A stretch of DNA of 64,000 nucleotides from Solwaraspora sp. WMMA2056 (GTDB taxonomy: Bacteria; Actinomycetota; Actinomycetes; Mycobacteriales; Micromonosporaceae). The stretch lies in the NCBI RefSeq assembly GCF_030345095.1, contig NZ_CP128360.1, positions 4,712,001 through 4,776,000 of the forward strand. Direction: 5' to 3'. A model generated the notes under the pieces. The model saw nothing but the letters and a program-made list of their open reading frames with translations, made no database searches and was not told the origin of the DNA. Position numbers and translations under genes: made by a program. Below, in pieces: positions 22,786 to 41,342 of the stretch (the stretch's first letter is position 1; each line of letters begins with the position of its first letter).

Positions 22786-24402
<1,617 letters not shown>

Positions 24403-24891: not shown

Positions 24892-27435
24892 TCACGGCCG
24901 GGCCGGCTGCATCTGGGCCCGCGCGCTGTCACCGACGTCGAAGCGCAGTCCGTCGTCGGCGGCGTCGATGGTGACCCGCTGGCCGGCGACCAGTGCACCG
25001 TCGAGAAGCATTCTCGACAGTTGGTTGTCGACCTCGCGCTGGATCGTGCGGCGCATCGGGCGTGCTCCGAACTCCGGCTGGTACCCGGCCTGGGCGATCC
25101 AGTCGGCGGCGGCGTCGGTGACCTCCACGGCGATGTCCTGGGCGTGCAGCCGCCGCCGCGTCTCGTCCAGCAGCAGGTCGGTGATCTGCCGCAGCTGCGG
25201 CGCGGCCAACTGACGGAAGATGATGACCTCGTCGATCCGGTTGAGGAACTCCGGGCGGAAGTCCTCCTGCAGCCGACGCAGCAGGCGGGCCCGCAGGTCG
25301 TCGTCGGGGCCGTCGCCGTCGACGCCGCCGAACCCGACGCTGCGGCCGCCGCCGGTGATCAGCTCCGAGCCGAGGTTGCTCGTCATGATCAGTACGACGT
25401 TGCGGAAGTTCACCGTGCGGCCCTGACTGTCGGTCAGCCGTCCGTCGTCGATCAACTGCAGCAGGATGTTGAACACGTCCGGGTGGGCCTTCTCGATCTC
25501 GTCGAGCAGCAGCACCGCGTACGGCCGACGGCGGACCGCCTCGGTCAACTGGCCGGCCTCGTCGTAGCCGACGTAACCCGGCGGTGCGCCGACCAGCCGG
25601 CTGACCGTGTGCCGTTCCTGGAACTCGCTCATGTCCAGGCGGATCATCCGGTCGGCGTCGCCGAACAGGGCCGCCGCCAGTGCCCTGGCGAGCTCGGTCT
25701 TGCCGACTCCGGTCGGTCCGAGGAACAGGAAGCTGCCGACTGGCCGGTCCGGGTCGCCCAGCCCCGCACGGGATCGGCGGACCGCCTCGGCGACCGCAGT
25801 GACGGCGTCGTCCTGCCCCACCACCCGCTGGTGCAGCTCCCCCTCCAGCCGCAGCAGCCGCTCCCGTTCCTCCTCGGTCAGCTGATTGACCGGAATCCCG
25901 GTCGCCCGCGACACCACCTCGGCGATCTCCTCGACGCCGACCTGCGGCACCCGCGCCCCGTCGGGGCTGCGCGCGGCGTCGATCCGTCGCTGCGCCTCGG
26001 CCAGCTGGTCACGGAGCGCGCAGGCTCGTTCGTACTGCTCGTCGGCGACCGCCTGGGCCTTGTCCCGATGCAACTGCTCCAGCTCGCGTTCCAGCTCGCG
26101 GACGTCGGCGGCCGGAGTCCTGGTGCGCAACCGCACCCGGGCACCGGCCTGGTCGATCAGGTCGATCGCCTTGTCCGGCAGGAACCGGTCGCTGATGTAG
26201 CGGTCGGCGAGTTCGGCCGCCGACACCAACGCGTCGTCGGCGAACCGGACCTGGTGGTGGGCCTCGTAGCGGTCCCGCAGCCCGTGCAGGATCGCCACGG
26301 TGTCGGCCACGGTCGGCTCGGGCACCAGCACCGGTTGGAACCGTCGGGCCAGCGCCGCGTCCTTTTCGATGTTGCGCCGGTACTCGTCCAAGGTGGTGGC
26401 CCCCACCACCCGCAGCTGTCCACGGGCCAGCGCCGGCTTGAGCATGTTGCTGGCGTCCATCGACCCTTCGGCTCCCCCACCGCCGGCACCGACCAATGTG
26501 TGCAGTTCGTCGAGGAAGACGATCAGGTCGTCGCCGTGGGTCCGGATCTCGTCGATGACCTTCTTCAACCGTTCCTCGAAGTCGCCCCGGTACCGGGTGC
26601 CGGCGACCAGTCCGGCGAGGTCGAGCTGCACCACCCGCTTGCCGGTCAGGGTCTGCGGTACGTCACCGTCGGTGATCCGCTGGGCAAGGCCTTCGACGAT
26701 CGCGGTCTTGCCGACCCCGGCCTCGCCGATCAGCACCGGGTTGTTCTTCGTCCGACGGGACAGGATCTCCACGGCCTGCTCGATCTCCTCGTCGCGGCCG
26801 ACCACCGGGTCGATCGCGCCCTGCGCGGCCAGGTCGGTCAGGTCCTGGCCGTACTGGTCGAGGGTGGGCGTGCCCCGGGCGGGCCGCGACCGCGCGGCAC
26901 CGGCACGGCCGCGTTCGGCGCTGGCGTTCTGCAGCGAGCCTGGCTCGACGTGACCGGCGGCGAGCATCCGCCCGGCGGCGGACTCGGGGTTGACCGCCAG
27001 GGCCATCAGCACGTGCTCCGGGCCGATGTAGGTGGCCCCGGTGGCCCGGGACAGCTGGTGGGCGTCGAGCAGGGCACGTTTGGCGGCCGGGGTCAACGAC
27101 AGGTTGGCCGGCACCTCACCCCGGCCGGCGGCCGGCCCGCCGAGCTCGCTGAGCAACCCGTCCGGGTCCGCGCCGGCCCGGCGGACCAGGTCACGCAGCG
27201 GCTGGCGCTGCAACGCGGCCCACAGCAGATGGTCGGTGTCCAGGTCGCTGGTGCCCGAGTGGGCGGCCCGCCGGGCGGCCGAGGTCAGCAGATCCCGGGC
27301 GTCGGCGCTCATCAGTCGGGTGATGTCCACCCGGTGTACCGGCAGCCGCGGCTCACCCCCGGTGAGGAACCGGGCGAGCAGATCCTCCCAGGGATCGGTG
27401 CCCAGCCCGCCCGGGCCGTACGGTCCGTCACTCAT
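24892..27435 (-). CDS. ATP-dependent Clp protease ATP-binding subunit, ClpC-like
   Basis: An 847-aa class I Clp/Hsp100 unfoldase. It has an N-terminal repeat domain (about 30-160), first AAA+ domain with Walker [10 protein letters not shown] and Walker [12 protein letters not shown], a UVR-like middle segment ([18 protein letters not shown]), and a second AAA+ domain with [14 protein letters not shown] and [13 protein letters not shown]. It lacks the long coiled-coil middle domain of ClpB, so it groups with ClpC. The divergent N-terminus ([19 protein letters not shown]) and the [20 protein letters not shown] loop suggest a secondary ClpC paralog rather than the housekeeping copy. It likely unfolds substrates for ClpP or acts as a disaggregase. 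Confidence 0.93.
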
Positions 27436-28221: not shown

Positions 28222-28482
28222 GTGGCGAGTGTCGCCGAGGTCAAGTCCGCCATCGAAGCCGCGATCATGCAGGTGTCGGAGGGTCAGGCCGCCGTGCAGG
28301 CGGCCAGCGAGAAGATCGCCGAGGCCCAGCAGAGCCTGGCGGCGGCGTTCGACGGCAGCGGCCACGAAGCGGTGGGTGCCGCCCAGGCCGCGCTCTTCCA
28401 GGCCAGCTCCGAGCTCGAGGAGTGTCTGGCCGCCACCCTCGCCGCCGTCGAACAGGCCCAGACGTACTCCGCGACGCTGTAG
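28222..28482 (+). CDS. Small helical-hairpin protein, first gene of the ATPase operon
   Basis: An 86-aa acidic, alanine-rich protein with two predicted long helices (about 2-40 and 47-84) joined by a turn at FDGSGHEAVG. Size and shape recall WXG100/ESAT-6 substrates of type VII secretion, but the Trp-X-Gly of that family is absent and the C-terminus lacks a clear YxxxD/E signal. One Cys is in ELEECLAATL. The GTG start has a strong AGGAGG site 8 bases upstream. It is the first of four tightly packed genes, 4 bp before the second, and the high-copy start site suggests it may be made in excess, as a secreted or structural subunit would be (inference). Confidence 0.8.
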   Translation: MASVAEVKSAIEAAIMQVSEGQAAVQAASEKIAEAQQSLAAAFDGSGHEAVGAAQAALFQASSELEECLAATLAAVEQAQTYSATL

Positions 28483-28486
28483 CCCG

Positions 28487-29386
28487 ATGTCGCTCGTCGA
28501 GAATCTCGCCGCCCGGGTCCAGGCCACCGCCGACGACCTGCCGATCGGCCAGATCGCCGTGGCGGTCGAACGGCTGCGCGCCGCGACCGAACTGCTCATC
28601 TGGGTACGCCAGCAGTCCGCCGATCCACTCGCCGTACCGCAGCTGCTCGGTGCCGTCGAACACGTCGAACAGGCCGGGTACGCGGTGGAGGTGACCCGGC
28701 AGTCGATAGCCGACTACCTGGCGTCGATCGGCATCGGCCAGGCAGCGGGCACCGACGGATCCTGGCGTGCCGCGCTGACCGACCGCGATCAGCCGACGGG
28801 CTCCGACGGCGAGCGGCAGCCGGGGCACGCCGACGCACCACGGCTGGGCAACTGGTGGGCCGTACGGGTCGCCGAGCTGACCGACAGCGGACAGATCGAC
28901 CAGGACGGGCCGGCCGGCACCGTGTCCGACACTGCGCACCTGTTGCGCCAGGTGGCGACGGCGGTCGCGCGGACCGACCGCACGGCACTGCACCGGGACC
29001 TGGCCGGCGTCGCCGCGCCCACCGGGTTGGGTCTGGCCGCGATCACCCCGCCGGTCCTGCACCGACTGGCCGGCGACCTGCTCGACCACGAGCCCCGCCC
29101 CGAGGACCTGCCGGCGCTGACCTCGGCGACCGCCGCGAGGGTGCGCGAACTGCTACCCGGGATGCCCGAGCCGGTGCTGCAGACCCTGCTGGCCCGGATC
29201 TGCCGGGTGCCGGTCGAGCAGCAGGTGGCGGCGGACCGGCACGACGAGCCGCCACCGCCACCGCACCCCGCTGACACCGCCGTGGCCGGAGCGGTGCTCA
29301 CCGGGGTGGTGCTGCGGTTGCTCGACCGCGATCCGCAGACCCTGCGGCCGGAGCAGCCGCAGGCCCTGCGGGGGCGCGATGCCTGA
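28487..29386 (+). CDS. Helical hypothetical protein, operon with FtsK-like ATPase
   Basis: A 299-aa protein of unknown function. The first 95 residues are predicted helical (LVENLAARVQATADDLPIGQ onward), then an acidic and glycine-rich linker, then a second helical region (LGNWWAVRVAELTDSGQ through HLLRQVATAVAR) and a Pro-rich stretch PPPPPH near residue 263. No signal peptide or clear membrane helix. It begins 4 bp after the small helical protein and ends 8 bp inside the ATPase gene, so the products are likely made in fixed proportion. Possibly an adaptor or substrate-recognition subunit; this is inference from position. Confidence 0.78.
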   Translation: MSLVENLAARVQATADDLPIGQIAVAVERLRAATELLIWVRQQSADPLAVPQLLGAVEHVEQAGYAVEVTRQSIADYLASIGIGQAAGTDGSWRAALTDRDQPTGSDGERQPGHADAPRLGNWWAVRVAELTDSGQIDQDGPAGTVSDTAHLLRQVATAVARTDRTALHRDLAGVAAPTGLGLAAITPPVLHRLAGDLLDHEPRPEDLPALTSATAARVRELLPGMPEPVLQTLLARICRVPVEQQVAADRHDEPPPPPHPADTAVAGAVLTGVVLRLLDRDPQTLRPEQPQALRGRDA

Positions 29387-32060
29387 CGCGCGGACCGAGC
29401 TGGTCGCCAGGGTCCGCCGGGCGCTGAGCCACGCCCGGGCAGCGGCACGGGACCAGCTGGACCTGGTCGAAGCCGATCTCGCGGCAGCCGAACACCAGCT
29501 CAAACGCGCCCAGCGAGCCGCCGAGCAGGTGCCGGCCCGGGCGGGCGCGCACCGGGACCAGCGGCTGGCTGAGCTCACTGATCGTTACCACGACCGGATC
29601 ACGGCGGCGGCCCGGGTGGCGGTGGCCGCCGCCAACCGGGCCGCACCGGGTGCGGCGTCGAGCGACTGGACCAGTTGGACACCGGCACCGGCACCGCGCA
29701 CCGAACCACCCGGGATGCTGCGGATCGGGTTGACCGGGCTGACCGGCGGGCCGCCGGTACCCGCTCTCGTACCGCTGCTGGACCATGGCCACGTGCTGGT
29801 CGACGGCGACGACCTGGCCGGCCGCGACGCCGTGATCAGCACGTTGTTGCTGCGGGCGCTGGGTCGGGCGGCACCGGGCGGGGTGCGGCTGACCGGATAC
29901 GACCCGGAGCACCTCGGCGGCGGTCTGGCCGGCTTCGCCCCGCTGGCCGGTCCGGGCCTGCTGAGCTTCGTCGGGCCGGGCGGACTCGGCCGACACCTGG
30001 ACGAACTGGTCGACCACGTCCGGCGGATCAACGAGACCGTACTCGCCGGCGAGTTCGGTTCACTGCGCGAACTGGCGGCGGCCACCGGTCGCCGGCCCGA
30101 ACCGTGGCGCATCGGCGTGCTGCTGGGCAGCGCGGGTGAGGAACTGTCCCGGCACGAACGGGCCCAGCTGGACCGGATCGCCCGCGCCGGGGCCGCCTGC
30201 GGGGTCCACCTGGTGGTCCGCGACGTGCCATTGGGCGACACACCAGCGCTGACCACCGTGTCGGTCTCCGGCGGGACCGCGAGGATCAGCGGGTACGCCC
30301 AGTTGCCGGTCCGGCTCGATGCGCCGCCACCACCCGAGCTGGTCACCCGTACCTGCCGGGAGGTCGCGTCCGCGATCATGGCCGGCCCGGAGCCGGCAGC
30401 CTTCGCGGACCTGCTGCCCGAGCAGGAATGGACCGGTGACGCGACCAGCGGGATCACCGCTCCGGTCGGCGAGAGTACACACGGTCGCCCAGTGGAGGTG
30501 ACCTTGAGCGACTACCCACCGCACGCGCTGATCGGTGGGCCGTCCGGTACCGGCAAGACCAACCTGATCTACGCGTGGATCGGTGCGCTCGCCGCCCGCT
30601 ACTCCCCGACGGAGCTGGAGTTCTACCTGCTGGACTTCAAGGAGGGGGTGTCCTTCGCACGGTTCGCCCCCGGACGCCGGGACCCGAGTTTCCTGCCGCA
30701 TGTGCGGCTGGTCGGCGTCAACGTCAACACCGACCGGGAGTTCGGGTTGGCGATGCTGCACTTCCTCGGCGCCCAGCTGCGGCGGCGGGCCGACGCCGCG
30801 AAGCGGCACGAGGTCACCAAGCTGGCCGAGTTGCGGGCCGAGGACCCGCAGGGCCGGTGGCCCCGGATCGTCGCGGTGATCGACGAGTTCCAGGTGCTGC
30901 TCGCTGGCAACGACGCGCTGGCCACAGAGGCGGCGACCCTGCTGGAGGACCTGGCCCGGCGCGGCCGGTCACAGGGCATCCACCTGATCCTCGCCTCCCA
31001 GGACGTCTCCGGCATCCAGGCGCTGTGGGGCCGGACCGCGCTGATCGCCCAGTTCGCGCTGCGGATCGCGTTACCGAAGGCGCGGCGCATCCTGCCGGAG
31101 ACGAACACCGCCGCCGAGGCGTTGCCGCGTCACCACGCCGTGGTCAACGCCGAGTCCGGAGCGCTGGAGGCGAACCAGGTGGTCCGGGTGCCCGCCGCCA
31201 GCGACCGGGACACCTGGCAGGAGCTGCAGCACCGGCTGTGGCGGCGACGGCCGGACGGGCTGGCGCCGCCGAGGCTGTTCGACGGGGACGCCGTACCCCG
31301 GTTGGCCCAGGCCCCGGACTACCTGGCGCTGTCGGGCGACGGGTCCGGCCCGCACGAGCCGGTCGCGCTGCTCGGCGAGACGATCGACGTCCTGGCCCGC
31401 TCGGCGCGGCTGGGGCTGCCCCGGGCGCCGGGCCGCAACCTGGCGGTGCTGGGCACCCGGGTCGACGAGGCGTGTGCGCTGCTCGACGCCGCCGCCCGTT
31501 CCCTCGCCCGGCAGTACCCACCCGGCGCGGCCCGGTTCGACCTCGCCTGTCTCGACCCGGACGCGGTGGCCGCCGCCCGGCAACTGCACGCCGCACTGCC
31601 GGCCGGGACCGGCCTGTACGATCTGGACACCGTCGGTGGGCTGCTCGCCGACACCGCCGACCGGCTGGCGGTCGACGCCGTGGACGCCCCGGTCCGGCCG
31701 CACTTCCTGGTGCTGTACGCGGTGGACGCCGCGGCCGGGCGACTGGCCGCCAAGTTCGCCGGCCGGTCCGGCCTCGACCGGCTCCGCCGGGTGCTGCACC
31801 TGGGCCCGGAGCGGCACACCCATGTGCTGGGCTGGTGGCGCGGAGTCGCCCGGATGCGCGACGACCTCGGTGGGATCGGGTCGCGGACCGACCAGATCGG
31901 CGCGTGGGTCGCGCTCGACGTGCACGGTGCCGAACTCGCCCCGCCGTTGTATCCGAAGGCCGGCGGACCGACCTGGTACCCCCGGCCGTGGCGGGCGCTG
32001 TTCTTCGACCGGACGGTGCACCGCACTGCCGAGGTGATCATCCCGTACGGGTTGTCCTGA
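29379..32060 (+). CDS. FtsK/SpoIIIE-type ATPase with three tandem motor-like domains
   Basis: An 893-aa protein. Residues 1-60 form a charged coiled coil. A first ATPase-like domain (about 115-330) has a degenerate P-loop (GHVLVDGDDLAGRDAVI). The second domain (about 365-580) is intact: Walker A IGGPSGTGKTNLI near residue 388 and Walker B IVAVIDEFQVLL near 500. A third domain (about 665-880) is degenerate (GRNLAVLGTRVDEACALLD). Three FtsK-like domains in a row is the layout of EccC of type VII secretion, but here only the middle one can hydrolyse ATP, and no membrane helices are obvious. It overlaps the preceding gene by 8 bp and the following one by 1 bp (TGATG). Confidence 0.88.
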   Translation: MPDARTELVARVRRALSHARAAARDQLDLVEADLAAAEHQLKRAQRAAEQVPARAGAHRDQRLAELTDRYHDRITAAARVAVAAANRAAPGAASSDWTSWTPAPAPRTEPPGMLRIGLTGLTGGPPVPALVPLLDHGHVLVDGDDLAGRDAVISTLLLRALGRAAPGGVRLTGYDPEHLGGGLAGFAPLAGPGLLSFVGPGGLGRHLDELVDHVRRINETVLAGEFGSLRELAAATGRRPEPWRIGVLLGSAGEELSRHERAQLDRIARAGAACGVHLVVRDVPLGDTPALTTVSVSGGTARISGYAQLPVRLDAPPPPELVTRTCREVASAIMAGPEPAAFADLLPEQEWTGDATSGITAPVGESTHGRPVEVTLSDYPPHALIGGPSGTGKTNLIYAWIGALAARYSPTELEFYLLDFKEGVSFARFAPGRRDPSFLPHVRLVGVNVNTDREFGLAMLHFLGAQLRRRADAAKRHEVTKLAELRAEDPQGRWPRIVAVIDEFQVLLAGNDALATEAATLLEDLARRGRSQGIHLILASQDVSGIQALWGRTALIAQFALRIALPKARRILPETNTAAEALPRHHAVVNAESGALEANQVVRVPAASDRDTWQELQHRLWRRRPDGLAPPRLFDGDAVPRLAQAPDYLALSGDGSGPHEPVALLGETIDVLARSARLGLPRAPGRNLAVLGTRVDEACALLDAAARSLARQYPPGAARFDLACLDPDAVAAARQLHAALPAGTGLYDLDTVGGLLADTADRLAVDAVDAPVRPHFLVLYAVDAAAGRLAAKFAGRSGLDRLRRVLHLGPERHTHVLGWWRGVARMRDDLGGIGSRTDQIGAWVALDVHGAELAPPLYPKAGGPTWYPRPWRALFFDRTVHRTAEVIIPYGLS

Positions 32061-32725
32061 TGGACGATTCCTATCCGGCGGCGATGCGCCGGCTGGCCGA
32101 GCTGGCGGCGGCGTTGCAGGCCCGTCGCGACGAGGCACACCACTGGTACGCGCAGCGCCGCACCATCGCGCAGGACGCGGTGAGCGCGGCCCAGGCCGAG
32201 GTCGACGACCTGCTGCAGGCGCACGCCGACGCCGCCCACGACGTAGCGGAGGTCGACCGCGAGGCGGCGCAGATCTGGACCGAGATCGGATACCAGCTCG
32301 GCCCGGTCGCCGACCGCTTCGGTGGGCTGCCGGCGCCGGCGGCTGGTCCCGACGCCGCCGGCGGCCCCGAAGGTCCACAGGTCTGGCTGGACCGCGCCCG
32401 GGCCCTCGCTGCACGCTCGGCCGAACCCGGTGCGCTGACCCCGGCGGCACAGCCGGTGCTGGCGCTGTTCGGCGCACTCGGCGCGGCGGCGGCGTTCGGC
32501 CTCGCCACGCTGGCCCGCTGGGTGGGCCTGCGCTACGGCGGCGACCTGGCGGTCGGCATGCCGGTGATCGCCCTGGTGGTGACCCTGCTGGGACCGCTGT
32601 TCGGGTTGGCCCCGGCCAAGGCGCTCGCCGACCGGCGACACGCGGTGCTGCACCTGCGTGCCGTCGCCACCGTGCTGATCGCCGGAGGGGTGACCACAGT
32701 GGCCCTGGTCGGCCTGCTGCGCTGA
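32060..32725 (+). CDS. Coiled-coil membrane protein, last gene of the ATPase operon
   Basis: A 221-aa protein whose ATG overlaps the ATPase stop (TGATG). Residues 5-75 are a predicted coiled coil, 80-130 a Pro/Gly-rich linker, and the C-terminal third has three hydrophobic segments (about 132-156, 164-184, 199-220). It is therefore a likely membrane anchor for the soluble ATPase. I recognise no family. It ends 23 bp before the convergent JmjC gene. Together with the three preceding genes it makes a complete small machine: candidate substrate, adaptor, motor and membrane part. Confidence 0.78.
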   Translation: MDDSYPAAMRRLAELAAALQARRDEAHHWYAQRRTIAQDAVSAAQAEVDDLLQAHADAAHDVAEVDREAAQIWTEIGYQLGPVADRFGGLPAPAAGPDAAGGPEGPQVWLDRARALAARSAEPGALTPAAQPVLALFGALGAAAAFGLATLARWVGLRYGGDLAVGMPVIALVVTLLGPLFGLAPAKALADRRHAVLHLRAVATVLIAGGVTTVALVGLLR

Positions 32726-32748: not shown

Positions 32749-34011
32749 TCAATCGACCACGGCGATCGCCTCACGCAGCAACCGTCTCGCCAGCACCACC
32801 CGGTCGTCGTCGGCCAGGCCGGGCAGGTCACCGACCCGGATCCGGCGGGCGTGCAGCACGGCCCGCAACGCGGGCGCGCACGGTGCCGGGAAACTGACGG
32901 TACGGTCGAACACCTCGACCGCGATCCGGTCCGGCGGTTGCGGGACCAGCCGCCAGGACAGACCCTGCCGTAGGCGGATCACGTCGTCGAGGTCGAGCGT
33001 ACGGAGCCGGTCGGCCTGCTCCAGCGGCCGTAGCGGGGCCGGTCGGGTGACGTGCCGGCCCCGCCGACGCAGCTCGGCGGCGAGCTGCGTGGGGGTCACC
33101 TGGGTCAGCCAGTCCCGCAGCGCGGTGACCGTGGCGGTCAGTTCCGGTGCGACGCCCGAGGGGTCGGTCAGGTCGACGCCCATCGGCACCGACGCCCGCA
33201 GCGCCGGTTCGTCGACCGCCAACTCCAGCAACGCCTCCACCAACGAGAACCGGGTCCGGGACCGGACTCCGACAGTGAGATGCAGGGAGCTGTCGTGTTG
33301 GGCCGTGGCGCTGTGCAGCCAGCCCCGGGGCAGGTAGAGCGCGTCGCCGGGGGCCAGCACGACATCGAGCGCCGGTGGTCCGTCGGCGCGGGCGGCGACC
33401 TCGTCGGCCCGGCCCGACCACGTCTGCCGGGGCAGCGGGTCGGCCAGCACCGGAGCGTGCACGCGCCACCGCTTGCGTCCCCGTACCTGCAGCACGAACA
33501 CGTCATGGGTGTCGTAGTGGGTGGCGAAGCCCTGGTTGCCGGCCGGGGTCAGGTAGGCGTTGACCTGCAACGGCTGGCACAGCGCGGCGGACAGTTCGGT
33601 GGTGAAGTCGATGATCGGCGGCCAGAGCCGGTGCAGCCCCTGCAGCACGATGGTGGCGCCGTCGGCGTACAGCCCGAGCACCCGCTCGTCGAGGACCTGG
33701 TCGCCGATCTCAGCACCGGCCCCGCCACTGCCGGTGTACGTCGATTCGGCGAGCACGGCACCGTCGCGGGCCACCCGGATGAACGGTGTGCGCAGCCCGC
33801 GCCGGCTCAGCAGCTCGTCGGCGGTGTCCCGATCGAACAGATCGGTGAAGCCGACCGGATTCGCCAGGTCGGCGGCGCGGGAGAGCAGCGGAGCCCGGCC
33901 CCAGTAGGTGGCGGCGAACTTCGCTGGTTCGACGGCGACGCAGCGCGCCAGCGCCGGGCGGGGTGCTACCCCGCCCGGCTGACCGGCCGGTCGCGTGGCG
34001 ACGCTGGTCAC
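32749..34011 (-). CDS. JmjC-domain 2-oxoglutarate/Fe(II) oxygenase (NO66/YcfD-like)
   Basis: A 420-aa JmjC oxygenase. The iron-binding HxD is His165-Tyr-Asp167 in GFATHYDTHDVFVLQ, followed by GRKRWRVH, and the distal His is probably His233 in ALYLPRGWLHSA. This is the pattern of the ribosomal-oxygenase group (NO66, MINA, YcfD), which hydroxylate His or Arg side chains. A helical dimerization region and winged-helix-like C-terminus follow. It starts at GTG 34011, overlapping by four bases (GTGA) the stop codon of a small repetitive peptide gene. The tight coupling suggests that peptide is its substrate (inference). Confidence 0.9.
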   Translation of the reverse strand: MTSVATRPAGQPGGVAPRPALARCVAVEPAKFAATYWGRAPLLSRAADLANPVGFTDLFDRDTADELLSRRGLRTPFIRVARDGAVLAESTYTGSGGAGAEIGDQVLDERVLGLYADGATIVLQGLHRLWPPIIDFTTELSAALCQPLQVNAYLTPAGNQGFATHYDTHDVFVLQVRGRKRWRVHAPVLADPLPRQTWSGRADEVAARADGPPALDVVLAPGDALYLPRGWLHSATAQHDSSLHLTVGVRSRTRFSLVEALLELAVDEPALRASVPMGVDLTDPSGVAPELTATVTALRDWLTQVTPTQLAAELRRRGRHVTRPAPLRPLEQADRLRTLDLDDVIRLRQGLSWRLVPQPPDRIAVEVFDRTVSFPAPCAPALRAVLHARRIRVGDLPGLADDDRVVLARRLLREAIAVVD

Positions 34012-34286
34012 CGCCGGTTGGCGCCGCCGTCGGCACCCCCGTCGTGACCACCCGGATTGGCCCCGCCGTCGGCGAGGCCCTCCTTGGCCCGGGGCCCGGC
34101 GCCACCGTCGGCACCCCCGTCGTGACCGCCCGGGTCGGCACCGCCGTCGGCGAGGCCCTCTCCGGCGGCCGGTGCGGCGCCGCCGTCGGCACCGCCGTCG
34201 TGACCAGCCGGATTGGCCCCACCGTCGGCCGGGCCGTGACCGGCGGACGGGCCGCTGCTGCGAATGTCGTCGTCGTCGAGTTTCAT
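34008..34286 (-). CDS. Repetitive Gly/Asp/His peptide, candidate modified-peptide precursor
   Basis: A 92-aa peptide with an excellent ribosome site (AGGGGG, 6 bases before ATG). Layout: leader MKLDDDDIRS (1-10), three 26-residue repeats at 11-36, 37-62 and 63-88, and tail ANRR. Repeats 2 and 3 share EGLADGGA, then N/D-P-GG and HDGGADGG; repeat 1 is a diverged copy. It has no Cys, Trp, Phe or Tyr, no signal peptide and no predicted fold. Each repeat carries one conserved His and several Asp. The stop overlaps the JmjC start (GTGA). Multi-core precursors of ribosomally made peptide products look like this. Whether it is modified or exported is not shown. Confidence 0.82.
   Translation of the reverse strand: MKLDDDDIRSSGPSAGHGPADGGANPAGHDGGADGGAAPAAGEGLADGGADPGGHDGGADGGAGPRAKEGLADGGANPGGHDGGADGGANRR
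34023..34256 (-). repeat. Three 78-bp in-frame tandem repeats within the peptide gene
   Basis: The DNA of residues 11-88 consists of three adjacent 78-bp units, boundaries near 34178 and 34100, each containing the core encoding GGHDGGADGG or AGHDGGADGG. The period is a multiple of three, so copy number can change without breaking the frame. Confidence 0.9.
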
Positions 34287-34427
34287 GGTTGCCCCCTGCG
34301 GCGTGTCCGACGCCCGCCGGTACGCGGACGTCGTGATCGTGCCGTCGGGTGGTACCCGGCCCGGGGGCAGGCTAACCGCACCGTGCCCGGCGACGCCGCG
34401 CCCCTGCCCCGGCGACGCCGATCGGAC

Positions 34428-35450
34428 TCACTGACCGGGATAGGGCGCGCAACTGTCCCGCACGACAAGCTCGGTGGCCAGTTCGACCCTGGGGGTGTCC
34501 AGGGACTCGCCCTGAGCCAACCGCAGGACCGTACGGGCGGCCAGCAGACCCATCTCGGCCAGTGGTTGCCGGACGGTGGTCAGCGGCGGTGAGGACCAGC
34601 GGACCTCCGGCAGGTCGTCGAATCCGACGACGCTGACGTCGTCGGGGACCCGCAGGCCACGCAGCCGCAGCGCCTCGTACGCGCCCAGCGCCATCTGGTC
34701 GCTGGAGGCGAAGATCGCCGTCGGCCGCTCGTCCAACTCCAGCAACGCGGCGGCGCCTTCGAACCCTGACTCGTGGTAGAAGTCGCCCGGCATGATGTAC
34801 TCCGGCCGTAGCGGGATGTCGGCCGCCTCCAGCGCGGCCCGGTAGCCGTCCAGGCGGGCCCGGCTGCACAGCAGGCGGGGTGGCCCGGCGACGAAGCCGA
34901 TCCGGCGGTGCCCGAGCGAGATCAGGTGTTCGGTGGCCCGGAGCCCACCGGCCCAGTTGGTCGCACCGATGGTGGGGATGTCCAGGCTGGGCACGCCGGC
35001 CGGGTCGACCAGGACCATCGGTACGTTGAGTCGGCGCAGCTCGGTGTGCAGCGGTGGGGCCAACTCGCTGGTGACCAGGATGACGCCGTCGGTCGCCCGG
35101 GTGCGCAGGTTCTGCAGCCACTGCCGGGTCGAGGTGGACCGGCGGTGGATCGCCGAGACGACCGTACCGACGCCGGCGGCGTGAGCGACGTCCTCGACGC
35201 CCCGGATGATCTCCACCGCCCAGGGGCTGTCCAGGTCGTTGAAGACGAGGTCGATCAGGCTGGCACCGGCTCGCGACCGGGTGGCCCGTCGCCGGTATCC
35301 GTGCCGACGCAGCAGCTCCTCCACCCGCTCGCGGGTCTGCGGGGCGACGTCGTTGCGGCCGTTGAGCACCCGTGACACGGTCGGCACCGAGACACCTGCC
35401 TCCTGGGCGATCGCGGTGATGGTGATCCTGCGTCCTTCGTCGACCGTCAC
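34428..35450 (-). CDS. LacI-family transcriptional regulator
   Basis: A 340-aa LacI repressor. The N-terminal HTH (ITITAIAQEAGVSVPTVSRV, then LNGRNDVAPQTRERVEELL) occupies residues 9-56, followed by a periplasmic-binding-like sugar domain (LIDLVFNDLDSPWAVEIIRG to RQPLAEMGLLAARTVL). GTG 35450 has GGAG 5 bases upstream. It is divergent from the GH3 glycosidase, and a LacI-type palindrome lies 94 bp upstream of its start, in the shared promoter region. It very probably represses that gene and itself until a sugar inducer binds. The inducer is unknown. Confidence 0.93.
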   Translation of the reverse strand: MTVDEGRRITITAIAQEAGVSVPTVSRVLNGRNDVAPQTRERVEELLRRHGYRRRATRSRAGASLIDLVFNDLDSPWAVEIIRGVEDVAHAAGVGTVVSAIHRRSTSTRQWLQNLRTRATDGVILVTSELAPPLHTELRRLNVPMVLVDPAGVPSLDIPTIGATNWAGGLRATEHLISLGHRRIGFVAGPPRLLCSRARLDGYRAALEAADIPLRPEYIMPGDFYHESGFEGAAALLELDERPTAIFASSDQMALGAYEALRLRGLRVPDDVSVVGFDDLPEVRWSSPPLTTVRQPLAEMGLLAARTVLRLAQGESLDTPRVELATELVVRDSCAPYPGQ

Positions 35451-35846
35451 AGCAGCTCCTTCGTCGAGACTTCAGCGTACGGCCGAACGTTCCGCCAGTC
35501 GGTCCGGCACCGCCCACCGCGTCCGCAACCCATCTTGCCGCACTGGGAAAGCGCTTGGCAGCAGCCCCGCGGCGACGGCATCGTGGCAACGCGGGGCGGA
35601 GGGCGACCGGCTGTTGCGGAGCGCGTTTCCGGAACTCGCCCGCTCCGCCGGGCCCCGTACCGCCGACCGCGACCACCGGCGGACATGCGGCGCGGCCGAT
35701 CATACCCGCCCCGGTGCCAACAAGTTGCCGACCACGAGACCTCGACGGAGCCGCAAATTTCCGGAAACATGTCGGAAAAGTAGCGGCGACGAACCAGTGG
35801 GAACAGGACCGGGCAGGTCCCGGCGAGGACGGACAGGAGACTGCGG
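35451..35846. other. Divergent intergenic region with LacI operator
   Basis: 396 bp between the LacI and GH3 genes without a supported gene. It contains one LacI-type palindrome (35544-35560) and, near the GH3 start, an AGGAG site. A lower-GC stretch around 35750-35800 (CAAATTTCCGGAAACATGTC) is a plausible promoter for the GH3 gene, with an incidental TTCCGGAA palindrome. Confidence 0.6.
35544..35560. promoter_or_regulatory. LacI-family operator
   Basis: TGGGAAAGCGCTTGGCA has the AAGCGCTT core and partial outer symmetry expected of LacI/GalR and CebR-like operators. It lies in the LacI-GH3 divergent region, nearer the repressor gene. Confidence 0.65.
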
Positions 35847-38312
35847 GTGAGCAGCAAGGACGACACCCCGGGCGGCACGGTGGTCGGCACCGGGCAGGTT
35901 GACCGGTCGCCGGCTGCCACGACCGCCGGCGGCAGCCGGCCGACGGACCCCGTCGAGGAGTCGGTGTCGTGGCGTGACCCGACGCTCGCGGTGCAGGATC
36001 GGGTCTTCGACCTGCTCAGCCGGATGTCGCTGACCGAGAAGGTGGCGCAGCTGTCCAGCTTCTGGCGCGGCGCCAACGCCTCGATCGACGACATGGCGCC
36101 GCTGCAACACGACCTGGTCGACGACACCGTCGACTGGGCCGATCTGTTGCACAGCGGACTGGGGCAGTTGACCCGTCCGTTCGGCACCACTGCGGTGCTA
36201 CCCGCAGACGGGGCCCAGGCCCTGGCCCGGGTCCAGGCAGAGATCGTCGCCGGCAACCGCTTCGGCATCCCGGCGCTGGTCCATGAGGAGTGCCTGACCG
36301 GCTTCATGACCTGGGGTGCGACGGTCTACCCCACCCCACTGGCCTGGGGTGCCAGCTTCGATCCGGACCTGGTGGAGCAGATGGCTGCCCGGATCGGGCA
36401 GGACATGCGCCAGGTCGGTGTGCACCAGGGCCTGGCGCCGGTGCTCGACGTCGCCCGGGATCCCCGCTGGGGCCGCACCGAGGAAACCATCGGCGAGGAT
36501 CCCTACCTGGTCGGCACGATCGGGACCGCGTACGTACGGGGTCTGGAGTCAGCCGGCGTCGTCGCCACCCTCAAGCACTTCGCCGGCTACTCGGCGTCGC
36601 GGGCCGGACGGAACTTCGCTCCGGTGTCGGTCGGCCCCCGGGAGTTCGCCGACGTGCTGCTACTACCGTTCGAGATGGCGGTACGCGACGGTGCCGCCCG
36701 CTCGGTGATGCACTCCTACGCCGAGGTCGACGGCGTTCCGGCGGCGGCCGACAGCGGACTGCTGACCGATCTGCTGCGCGGCCGGTGGGGATTCACCGGA
36801 ACAGTCGTCGCCGACTACTTCGGCGTGTCGTTCCTGGAGCTGCTGCACGGGGTGGCCGACAGCCCCGCGGCTGCCGCCGCGCTCGCTCTCGGTGCCGGGG
36901 TGGACGTAGAGTTGCCGGGGGTCCGCTGCTACGGAACTCCGCTGGTCGACGCGGTGCGCCGGGGCGGCGTACCGGAATCGGTCGTCGACCGCGCGGTCAC
37001 TCGGGTGCTGCGGCAGAAATGTGAGCTCGGCCTGCTCGACCCCGAGTGGTCCCCGGTACCACCCGCGATCGCCGATGTCACGGAGGGCAGGCCGATCGAC
37101 CTGGACCCGGTGTCGAACCGGGACCTCGCCCGTCGCCTGGCCGAGGAATCGGTCGTGCTGGTGAGCAACGACGGCTGCCTGCCGTTGCCGCCCAGGGGTC
37201 GGATCGCCGTCGTCGGCCCACTGGCCGACTCGCTGACCGGGATGCTCGGCTGCTACACCTTCCCCAGCCACGTGGGGTCGACCCCGGCCGGCGTCGACGA
37301 CGACCCCCGGATGACGACCGTGCTTGCCGCGCTGCGCACCGAACTTCCCGACGCGACGCTCGAACACGTCGCCACCGGACCGGTCGACGCCCAGGACACC
37401 CCGAGCATCGTGGTCGCCGCCGACGCCGCCGCCCGTGCCGACATCTGCGTGGCGGTGGTCGGCGACCGGGCCGGACTGTTCGGCAACGGCACCTCCGGCG
37501 AAGGTTGCGACGCCACCGACCTGGAACTGCCCGGTCGGCAGGGCGAGTTGATCGAGGCGTTGGTGGCCACCGGGACGCCGGTGGTCCTGGTGCTGCTCAC
37601 CGGCCGGCCGTACGCCCTCGGCCAGTTCGCCGACCGGCTCGCCGCGGTCCTCCAGGCCTTCTTTCCCGGGGCCGAGGGCGGGCCGGCGGTCGCCGGAATC
37701 CTCACCGGCCGGGTCTGCCCCTCCGGCCGGCTGCCGATCGGGGTGCCCCGACTACCGGGCGGGCAGCCCGCCAGCTACCTCAGTCCCGCGTTGGCACACC
37801 GCAGCGAGGTCAGCAACGTCGACCCCAGCCCACTGTTCCCGTTCGGGCACGGGCTGTCCTACACCACGTTCGAATGGTCGACGCCACTGGTCGACGGCGC
37901 CCGGGTCGACCCCGACGACGACGCTGGAGAGATCGGCACCGACGGCGCGGTGCGGGTCACGGTGCGGGTGACCAACACCGGCACCCGCACCGGCGCCGAT
38001 GTGGTCCAGCTGTACCTGCACGATCCGGTGGCCCAGGTGACCCGGCCGGTGGCCCGCCTGATCGGATACGCCCGCGTCGAGTTGGCACCGGGCGAGTCCC
38101 GCCGCGTCGAGTTCGACGTCTCGATGGACCTGTCCTGCTTCACCGGCCGGGACGGACGACGCATCGTCGAGCCGGGTGACCTGCTGCTGTGGCTGGCCAC
38201 GTCGAGCCGCGACGTGCGGGCACAGGTGCGGTTGCGGCTGACCGGGCCGGGTCGACAGGTCGACCACCGACGTCGCCTGACCTCGACGGTGCGAATTGAG
38301 CCGGGTGGGTGA
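35847..38312 (+). CDS. Glycoside hydrolase family 3 (beta-glucosidase/beta-xylosidase)
   Basis: An 821-aa GH3 enzyme without signal peptide, so probably cytoplasmic. The (beta/alpha)8 domain has KHFAGYSASRAGRNFAPV and the nucleophile Asp323 in TVVADYFGVSFL; the usual SDW is ADY here. The alpha/beta-sandwich domain (from about residue 430, VVLVSNDGCLPLPPRGRIAV) carries the acid/base region ATDLELPGRQGELI. A C-terminal fibronectin-III-like domain (RVTNTGTRTGADVVQLYL) completes the standard layout. It likely removes terminal glucose or xylose from imported plant oligosaccharides, under the divergent LacI. GTG start with AGGAG upstream. Confidence 0.92.
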   Translation: MSSKDDTPGGTVVGTGQVDRSPAATTAGGSRPTDPVEESVSWRDPTLAVQDRVFDLLSRMSLTEKVAQLSSFWRGANASIDDMAPLQHDLVDDTVDWADLLHSGLGQLTRPFGTTAVLPADGAQALARVQAEIVAGNRFGIPALVHEECLTGFMTWGATVYPTPLAWGASFDPDLVEQMAARIGQDMRQVGVHQGLAPVLDVARDPRWGRTEETIGEDPYLVGTIGTAYVRGLESAGVVATLKHFAGYSASRAGRNFAPVSVGPREFADVLLLPFEMAVRDGAARSVMHSYAEVDGVPAAADSGLLTDLLRGRWGFTGTVVADYFGVSFLELLHGVADSPAAAAALALGAGVDVELPGVRCYGTPLVDAVRRGGVPESVVDRAVTRVLRQKCELGLLDPEWSPVPPAIADVTEGRPIDLDPVSNRDLARRLAEESVVLVSNDGCLPLPPRGRIAVVGPLADSLTGMLGCYTFPSHVGSTPAGVDDDPRMTTVLAALRTELPDATLEHVATGPVDAQDTPSIVVAADAAARADICVAVVGDRAGLFGNGTSGEGCDATDLELPGRQGELIEALVATGTPVVLVLLTGRPYALGQFADRLAAVLQAFFPGAEGGPAVAGILTGRVCPSGRLPIGVPRLPGGQPASYLSPALAHRSEVSNVDPSPLFPFGHGLSYTTFEWSTPLVDGARVDPDDDAGEIGTDGAVRVTVRVTNTGTRTGADVVQLYLHDPVAQVTRPVARLIGYARVELAPGESRRVEFDVSMDLSCFTGRDGRRIVEPGDLLLWLATSSRDVRAQVRLRLTGPGRQVDHRRRLTSTVRIEPGG

Positions 38313-40370: not shown

Positions 40371-40418
40371 TCTGAATACCCGCCCTCGATGCTAGTGGCG
40401 ACCCGGCAAGATGATCAC

Positions 40419-41342
40419 ATGCGCGCCATCCTCGCCGGATTCGCCGCGATCTGGTCGGTCACCGCGATCGGCTATCTGATCAGCCGGTACGGACTGCTGG
40501 GATCCGACGCGACCACGGTGCTCGCCCGACTGGCCTTCTACGTCGCCACGCCAGCGCTGCTGTTCACCACGTTGTCGACCACTCGCCCGGCGGAGGTCTT
40601 CACCGGGGCCTTCGCCGCCTACCTGCTCAGCACCGCGGCCGTCGCCCTCGGCTACCTGGCAGTAGCCGGCTTGTGGTGGCGGCACCCGGCAGGTGACGTC
40701 GCGGTCGGCACGCTGGGAGCCTCGTACGTCAACGCCGCCAACCTCGGCATCCCGGTCGCCGTCTACGTCCTCGGCGACGTGTCGGCGGTCGCCCCGATCC
40801 TGCTGTTCCAGGTCCTCGTCGCCGCCCCCGCCGCCATCGCCGTCCTGGACGTCAGCACCGGCGACCGGCGGCCCTCGCTCGGCCGGCTACTGTCACTGCC
40901 CACCCGCAACCCGATCATGATCGCCTCCGCCGCAGGGCTCGCCGTGGCGGTCGCTGGCGTACGCCCACCGATGGAACTCCTGCGTCCATTCGAGCTGCTC
41001 GGGGCGGCGGCGGTGCCGTTGGCCCTGCTGGCGCTGGGCATGTCGCTGCCGGGCGCCCGGCCACTGGCGGCAGGACCGCAGGCCGGTCAGCGCGCCACGG
41101 CGGTGGCGCTCAAGGTCGTCGGGCAGCCGATCGCCGCCTACCTGATCGGCCGGTACGCCCTCGGCCTGACCGGGCCGGCACTGATCAGCGCAGTGGTGAC
41201 GGCCGCACTGCCGACCGCCCAGAACGTCTTCATCTTCGCCAGCCAGTACCAGCGCGCTGAGCGACTGGCCCGCGACACCATCGTGCTGTCCACCGTCGCC
41301 ACCGCCGTCACCCTGCCGTTGATCGCCGCCTGGCTCGGTTGA
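40419..41342 (+). CDS. AEC family transporter (auxin-efflux-carrier type)
   Basis: A 307-aa membrane protein with about ten hydrophobic segments and the two inverted halves typical of the auxin efflux carrier (AEC)/membrane transport family: the first half begins FAAIWSVTAIGYLISRYGLL, the middle has SYVNAANLGIPVAVYVLGD and PLALLALGMSLPGARP, and the end has TAALPTAQNVFIFASQYQ. Bacterial AEC members carry organic acids such as malate. An ATG at 40389 could add ten residues; neither start has a strong ribosome site, so the choice is by fit to the first helix. It is divergent from the orphan winged-helix regulator, which may control it (inference). Confidence 0.87.
   Translation: MRAILAGFAAIWSVTAIGYLISRYGLLGSDATTVLARLAFYVATPALLFTTLSTTRPAEVFTGAFAAYLLSTAAVALGYLAVAGLWWRHPAGDVAVGTLGASYVNAANLGIPVAVYVLGDVSAVAPILLFQVLVAAPAAIAVLDVSTGDRRPSLGRLLSLPTRNPIMIASAAGLAVAVAGVRPPMELLRPFELLGAAAVPLALLALGMSLPGARPLAAGPQAGQRATAVALKVVGQPIAAYLIGRYALGLTGPALISAVVTAALPTAQNVFIFASQYQRAERLARDTIVLSTVATAVTLPLIAAWLG

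Follow-up and report, generated by a model that had tools for sequence, protein, structure and literature searches.

In a 64,000-nt stretch of the Solwaraspora sp. WMMA2056 genome (NZ_CP128360.1, positions 4,712,001 to 4,776,000; hereafter the window), a gene encoding a 92-aa repeat peptide rich in Asp and Gly overlaps the start of a gene encoding a JmjC-type oxygenase. Many actinobacteria share the peptide gene and the JmjC gene as a conserved pair; the pairing is old and not a coincidence, and the peptide gene is protein-coding and under purifying selection. A conserved leader followed by a variable repeated core is, at the level of sequence, the pattern of a precursor of ribosomally synthesised and post-translationally modified peptides (RiPPs). 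We consider it fairly probable that the two genes are a minimal ribosomal-peptide modification unit, in which a multi-core precursor would be β-hydroxylated on Asp by the JmjC enzyme, and we treat the pair as a candidate RiPP class. The elements of the pair, including its open reading frames (ORFs), are as follows.

34352..34376, minus strand: SigB-type promoter motif GTTAGC-N13-GGGTAC (motif match, predicted).
34292..34297, minus strand: ribosome-binding site AGGGGG, 5 nt ahead of the ATG.
34008..34286, minus strand: precursor-like peptide gene, 92 aa, ATG start and TGA stop (ORF; conserved, under purifying selection).
34257..34286, minus strand: leader MKLDDDDIRS with the kept motif [LI]-x-D-[DE]-D-[IM] (column counts in 80 peptides; putative leader role).
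34179..34256, minus strand: repeat 1, residues 11-36.
34101..34178, minus strand: repeat 2, residues 37-62.
34023..34100, minus strand: repeat 3, residues 63-88.
32749..34011, minus strand: JmjC_2/ribosomal-oxygenase-type 2-oxoglutarate (2OG)-Fe(II) oxygenase gene, 420 aa, GTG start (PF08007, E 1.1e-29).
32752..32982, minus strand: C-terminal winged-helix-like domain of the enzyme, residues 344-420, a possible leader-binding part (strand/helix order in the model).

The peptide splits exactly into a leader of 10 residues, three repeats of 26 and a tail of 4, and its TGA stop overlaps the GTG start of the enzyme in the sequence GTGA (ORFs 34286..34008 and 34011..32749). This layout, the overlap and the strong ribosome site (AGGGGG) had been described in a first-pass annotation of the window and were borne out. 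Purine-rich ribosome sites also precede most of the relatives' peptide genes. Pairwise identity among the three repeats was 19, 20 and 22 of 26 residues, and 19 of the 26 repeat columns were the same in all three copies, a value not reached in any of 2000 shuffles of the peptide (maximum 7). The DNA forms a tandem array at 34020-34229 (period 78, 2.7 copies, 84% matches). The peptide contains 32.6% Gly and has a pI of 4.33 and a hydrophilicity of 0.88. No Pfam model matched four peptides of the family, and no NCBIfam model matched six.

Co-occurrence of the two genes was analysed in 300 Micromonosporaceae genomes (JmjC match at E <= 1e-20, peptide match at E <= 1e-5). The JmjC protein was found in 222 genomes and the peptide in 207; both were present in 205, the JmjC protein alone in 17 and the peptide alone in two, each time at a contig end. 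The co-occurrence in the 205 genomes is by presence, adjacency having been seen one by one only for a minority. Nine of the 17 JmjC-only genomes harbour a more divergent peptide directly upstream, two are cut by a contig end, and in the remaining six the enzyme match is a distant paralog only. A search of the phylum (E <= 1e-30) gave a JmjC match in 51 of 396 genomes and 37 of 237 genera.

An unbiased set of loci was then fetched by JmjC similarity alone, ignoring the peptide. It comprised the best 30 Micromonosporaceae loci, 29 new loci from the phylum search, follow-ups of the JmjC-only genomes and the best 80 loci from a named-genome collection; removal of duplicates left 151 distinct loci, four of them with less than 400 nt upstream. 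An ORF was scored as Asp/Gly-rich if it ended at most 700 nt upstream and had a D + G/2 fraction of at least 0.26 in its last 60 residues. Such an ORF was present just upstream at 133 of the 138 loci with at least 33% JmjC identity and at least 400 nt upstream (69/72 at 60% identity or above, 36/38 at 50-60%, 14/14 at 40-50% and 14/14 at 33-40%), and at 0/9 JmjC paralogs below 33% identity. The control scan, upstream of 560 other called genes, gave two positives, none with the leader motif. Among the misses, L015 has a 222-aa peptide that scores 0.258 against the cut-off of 0.26, and at L016, L131 and L215 the peptide gene is split by a frameshift, which could be a sequencing error in repetitive GC-rich DNA or a real loss. 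At L134 there is no peptide beside the enzyme. L071 passed the scan and was rejected as an acidic ORF without repeat or leader. After inspection, the pairing was accepted at 136 of 138 loci. In one further genome (G057), the JmjC gene was matched as three neighbouring pieces (L145, L152 and L154), suggesting frameshifts in that genome.

The coupling proposed in the first-pass annotation is strongly supported by these counts (136/138 loci versus 0/560 controls with the leader). That annotation had named two signs of a coincidental pairing, JmjC homologs without the peptide and random drift of the peptide frame, and neither was seen: a JmjC gene of this clade without the peptide is rare, and purifying selection acts on the frame. 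The median dN/dS was 0.13 (maximum 0.72) over 131 gapless peptide-gene pairs (75-98.5% identity), and the value was 0.047 between the window gene and its nearest relative.

The start of most peptides follows the pattern M-x-[LI]-[DSN]-D-[DE]-D-[IM]. In 80 leader-bearing peptides (79 distinct), the hydrophobic position was L in 76 and I in 4, the last acid was D in 78 and E in 2, and the I or M position was kept in 78, although these counts are partly circular because the peptides were chosen with a loose leader pattern. In the scan where the motif was not required, it was found at 123 of 133 loci. Cys was absent from all 80 leader-bearing peptides. The 26-residue unit is local to the window's genus; elsewhere the unit has 21 residues (EGPADGGA-x5-DGGADGxA) plus a variable linker, and the length of 26 was rejected as a family feature. 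Micromonospora repeats are EGPADGGATPGQHDGGADGSA units, and the cores of Modestobacter, Geodermatophilus and Blastococcus are runs of (DGGA)n. Distant members have cores of the type DGTDGDAADGTDGDA, with an Asp every two or three residues, and period-3 DGDA/DGTD cores; the L082 core is GTDQGVEGGTYGPRDA and the L128 core PTEDDENLDAPGEHSQDTGDE. The variation in repeat number that the first-pass annotation had suggested looking for was found, with 2 to 8 copies of DGGAD per peptide in 109 peptides of the EGPADGGATPGQHDGGADGSA type, and it fits the multi-core idea. In a 222-aa version of the peptide (L015/L047), a long DRGVERGADAGADVGA repeat array is inserted between canonical repeats. With a short precursor gene, a conserved leader, a variable core and a putative modifying enzyme encoded alongside (136/138 loci; metal triad invariant in 44 homologs), the pair has the make-up of a RiPP locus.

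In a 50-sequence tree of the enzymes, the GGADGG-type group was supported at 98/93 and the DGDA-type group more weakly, at 88/86; because of its long branches, the tree cannot say whether both groups are one clade. Peptide-bearing and peptide-free enzymes required 2 label changes on the tree, compared to 11 in shuffles; two L241 rows were labelled peptide-free from annotation, and one of these two genes was scanned and had no D-rich ORF.

The enzyme matches the Pfam families JmjC_2 (PF08007, E 1.1e-29) and Cupin_8 (E 4.4e-10), and is the only PF08007 match in the window's genome (7.0 Mb, one contig). An alignment of 44 homologs (34-96% identical to the window enzyme) showed H165, D167, H233, K180, N151 and Y153 to be invariant. 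We take H165, D167 and H233 to be the metal triad (HxD...H) and K180 to hold the position of the 2OG lysine. The AlphaFold2 model has a mean pLDDT of 91.4. Foldseek against the PDB returned NO66 first (E 2.6e-29, TM 0.64), followed by MINA53 (2.1e-26) and YcfD/RoxA (9.4e-21), and the sequence search agreed in placing NO66 and MINA among the closest solved structures; FIH was a weak fold match (E 1.5e-9). The enzyme models as a NO66-like oxygenase with an intact catalytic motif, and its PF08007 domain, HxD...H triad and 2OG lysine place it in the ribosomal oxygenase (ROX) structural family. The gene context argues for a substrate other than a ribosomal protein. In the model, the last 77 residues begin with four strands; two full helices, separated by a helical turn of three residues, and then a short strand follow, which is roughly the order reported for RiPP recognition elements (RREs). 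The accessible part of Bregman et al. 2025 (PMC12710340) describes fish and algal PF08007 proteins fused to RRE-like folds, and places the nearest bacterial homologs of these proteins, which are about 30% identical to them, in RiPP-like contexts.

Two plasmid-borne JmjC relatives were also seen. On a Streptomyces clavuligerus plasmid (L239, 2853-4248), a relative with 34% identity is annotated 'cupin domain-containing protein'; the 48-aa ORF upstream, annotated 'hypothetical protein', has an Asp-based core (IADNDPSDPP / IADPDPFDP) and a leader-like SLEPDEIEVI. On a Dolichospermum plasmid (L240, 2652-5137), a cyanobacterial relative with 28% identity has upstream of it a precursor-like peptide of 71 aa, which contains MSDEDI and an LNGG motif and whose core repeats RSSAQL; a gene for a 251-aa protein lies in between. 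This second arrangement is possibly another JmjC RiPP type.

Repeat statistics were obtained from 78 distinct 21-mers anchored on EGP only, in which D5, D14, D18, G7, G15, G16, A17 and A21 were invariant. Only G, D and A occurred at least twice in all 123 cores; for D and G this count is circular in part, since D/G content was used to accept loci. Ribosomal-oxygenase-type JmjC enzymes (NO66, MINA53, YcfD) and FIH act on β-carbons, so that Asp is the only plausible hydroxylation target among the three. The repeated Asp is the probable target of the JmjC enzyme. The first-pass annotation had offered Asp/Asn as an alternative to His, and Asp fits.

Upstream of the peptide gene, GGTTA-N14-16-GGGTA was found at 44 of 61 Micromonosporaceae loci (in 43 of these it lies 38-66 nt ahead of the start codon, in the other one 147 nt), compared to none of 19 other loci and 4 of the 324 upstream regions used as controls; 17 Micromonosporaceae loci lack the motif as searched. 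The accessible part of a study of promoters read by SigB homologues (PMC8346170) gives a consensus like GTTTAA-N12-14-GGG(A/T)A(A/T), and the Streptomyces coelicolor SCO5555p promoter reads GTTAGA-N13-GGGTAC. At the level of the motif, the element in the window is of the SigB type, and we infer stress-linked expression of the pair in Micromonosporaceae. An iron-box reading of an upstream GGTTAGCC element was dropped, as the upstream regions fit a SigB-type promoter.

In the mechanism that we propose, the short peptide would be a multi-core precursor, and its N-terminal leader (LxDDDI) would be recognised by the JmjC enzyme, perhaps through the C-terminal winged-helix domain. The Fe(II)/2OG centre would hydroxylate the β-carbon of regularly spaced Asp residues (ADGG, DGGADG in each repeat) along the flexible Asp-Gly chain. 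The product would be a very acidic, Gly-rich, polyanionic peptide with many β-hydroxyaspartates. It would probably be made under stress from the SigB-type promoter, and its role may be in metal-ion binding or cell protection.

Several observations weigh against an enzyme-precursor unit of this kind. In genome G115 (L134; L242, L243), an intact peptide gene lies 2.4 Mb from the JmjC gene, the only clear separation of the two genes seen. The leader motif was missing or altered at 10 of 133 loci (L069, L070, L071, L072, L076, L077, L081, L136, L202 and L227), and while the altered leaders are mostly near-variants (e.g. LSEQDI, LTDEQI), L070 and L072 have repeats and no leader motif of the LxDDDI kind. 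In a single-chain model of the peptide plus the enzyme, the leader stayed unplaced (pLDDT about 30), and a weak profile comparison of the C-terminal domain with three PqqD-type sequences revealed no similarity. Moreover, leader removal and export are unexplained, because no exporter or protease adjoins the pair.

The peptide might instead be a stress-induced disordered protein that works unmodified, or a regulator that binds the JmjC enzyme while the substrate lies elsewhere (e.g. a ribosomal protein). The SigB-type promoter motif, the high Gly content (32.6%), the low pI (4.33), the lack of maturation genes alongside and the ribosomal-oxygenase fold of the enzyme would all be consistent with this. 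We nevertheless think it unlikely, since rapid turnover of the repeat type behind a conserved leader is seen more typically in enzyme substrates, the enzyme paralogs do without the peptide (0/9), and the hydrophilicity of 0.88 falls below the hydrophilin limit of 1. Hydrophilins are defined by Gly above 6% and hydrophilicity above 1; membership of this group was rejected for the window peptide, and 18 of 79 relatives exceed the hydrophilicity limit.

An enzyme-substrate pair with another modified residue (Pro, Asn/Thr at position 9, or lineage-dependent residues) is improbable. In its favour, P occurs at least twice in 115 of the 123 cores, and 68 of the 78 units have N or T at position 9. Against this, T reaches 109 and N 41 of the 123 cores while D occurs in all of them, with the same caveat on D/G-based acceptance, and the period-3 cores vary nearly everything but D and G/A.

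Hydroxylation of the single His of each repeat, which the first-pass annotation had put forward, would parallel the β-hydroxylation of ribosomal His by NO66 and MINA53, the closest solved structures; GHDGG is present in all three repeats of the window peptide, and L128 also has one His per repeat. The family as a whole makes this very unlikely. Position 13, where the His lies, was H in only 38 of the 78 distinct units, R in 21, Q in 14 and another residue in 5 (T, V and A among them), and the own-genus relatives L005-L007 have GRDGG in every repeat. His occurred at least twice in 72 of the 123 cores and was absent from the last 60 residues of 46 of 133 peptides, and was rejected as a general target. 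A chance neighbourhood, in which a repeat ORF happened to arise next to an ordinary JmjC gene, would draw on the many long spurious frames of high-GC DNA and can be dismissed with near certainty in view of the 136/138 loci, the 0/560 controls with the leader and the median dN/dS of 0.13.

The neighbouring genes in the window are the following.

24895-27435, minus strand: ClpB/C-type ATPase.
22804-24399: protein with an alpha-lytic-protease prodomain.
40389-41339: PF03547 transporter.
28222-32725, plus strand: genes convergent with the JmjC gene (86-aa WXG100-like frame, FtsK/SpoIIIE-type ATPase, membrane-bound-looking protein).
34428-38312: LacI-type regulator and divergent GH3 glycoside hydrolase, upstream of the peptide gene.

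Among the direct neighbours of the pair in the window there is no protease or transporter, as the first-pass annotation had stated, and no second tailoring enzyme; the ClpB/C-type ATPase, the alpha-lytic-protease-like protein and the PF03547 transporter lie 6-11 kb away. ORFs similar in length to the ClpB/C-type ATPase gene recur, roughly as far off, in 15 of 21 Micromonosporaceae neighbourhoods. There was no sign that the ClpB/C-type ATPase, the alpha-lytic-protease-like protein or the PF03547 transporter is part of the system, although a maturation gene could have been missed because the shared neighbourhood clusters (30 listed) were judged by eye. Of the convergent genes, the WXG100-like frame has a Pfam E-value of only 0.037, the FtsK/SpoIIIE-type ATPase has 893 aa, and the third protein was judged membrane-bound by eye; the region is perhaps a type VII-like export locus. 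The pair is in chromosomal synteny with a convergent FtsK-type gene in 16 of the 21 neighbourhoods. The FtsK-type neighbours were rejected as part of the system, being absent from the clusters shared by distant loci. The LacI-type regulator recurs in 8 of the 21 neighbourhoods and is probably unrelated to the pair.

Outside Micromonosporaceae, a Suc_Fer-like (PF06999) gene commonly lies 3' of the JmjC gene on the same strand. Its frequency varied with JmjC identity (0/69 at 60% or above, 23/40 at 50-60%, 12/14 at 40-50%, 11/13 at 33-40% and 0/9 for the paralogs); one of these proteins was confirmed by Pfam (E 1.3e-13) and the others were recognised by the pattern C-x-[HNQ]-G-x2-D-x-CC. The PF06999 search gave no match in the window's genome, where a Suc_Fer partner was consequently rejected, and none in the 12 Micromonosporaceae relatives tested. 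The Suc_Fer-like gene is likeliest a redox helper that Micromonosporaceae lost or replaced. A broader version of the Asp-hydroxylation reading, which we regard as doubtful, would see a widespread actinobacterial class in which one JmjC enzyme converts tandem Asp-Gly repeats to β-hydroxyaspartate arrays that serve as a genetically encoded, stress-induced metal-binding polymer (siderophore-like or calcium-binding); where the Suc_Fer protein is present, it would keep the iron centre reduced or extend the oxidation.

If the pair is what we propose, a common RiPP-like class is added to a phylum already heavily mined for natural products. That such a class escaped notice would be plausible: its precursors lack Cys and are short and repetitive, and annotation, as in the plasmid records, names the enzyme just a cupin protein. 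JmjC proteins of the ribosomal-oxygenase type gain a new, directly testable candidate substrate, and the C-terminal winged helix of these proteins may then serve to bind leaders. The repeats would make the two-gene unit a natural tool for multi-site hydroxylation.

NO66, MINA53 and RoxA/YcfD share the fold and the HxD...H triad with the window enzyme; they have a C-terminal winged helix, and their substrates are ribosomal proteins. Unlike at the window pair, no D-rich ORF was found upstream of E. coli roxA. FIH-type hydroxylases are JmjC enzymes that act on Asp/Asn of ankyrin repeats, and so resemble the proposed system in their use of Asp/Asn in repeated sequences, but their substrates are folded and not known to be co-encoded. 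GsiB is a SigB-dependent repeat hydrophilin, short, Gly-rich and not known to be paired with an oxygenase; the window peptide is likewise short, Gly-rich and repeated, with a SigB-type promoter motif, but its hydrophilicity is below the hydrophilin limit. Macrocyclisation by 2OG dioxygenases in RiPPs is reportedly the subject of a 2025 paper in J Am Chem Soc (147:26693) cited by Bregman et al.

The RRE-fused JmjC proteins of PMC12710340 belong to the same Pfam family (PF08007) as the window enzyme, and their bacterial homologs have RiPP-like contexts; the accessible part of that paper gives JmjC one general sentence and names no precursor, leader, core, taxon or target. Apart from that sentence, none of the papers listed in searches of the open-licence PubMed Central literature, which most subscription papers fall outside, describes an Asp/Gly repeat peptide paired with a JmjC enzyme. 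The pair looks like a peptide-modification system that is still uncharacterised and unusually widely distributed. In the biphenomycin-type RiPPs, according to the accessible parts of PMC12707348 and PMC12257519, the JmjC/cupin enzymes BipG/BpmG and PbsQ hydroxylate ornithine in the precursor after the action of an arginase. As in the window, a JmjC or cupin-like enzyme is encoded there with a short precursor peptide. By contrast, BipG and PbsQ are each one of several enzymes (MNIO, B12-rSAM, arginase, peptidase) and act on Orn, while here the JmjC protein is the sole enzyme beside the precursor and the cores are Asp/Gly multi-repeats.

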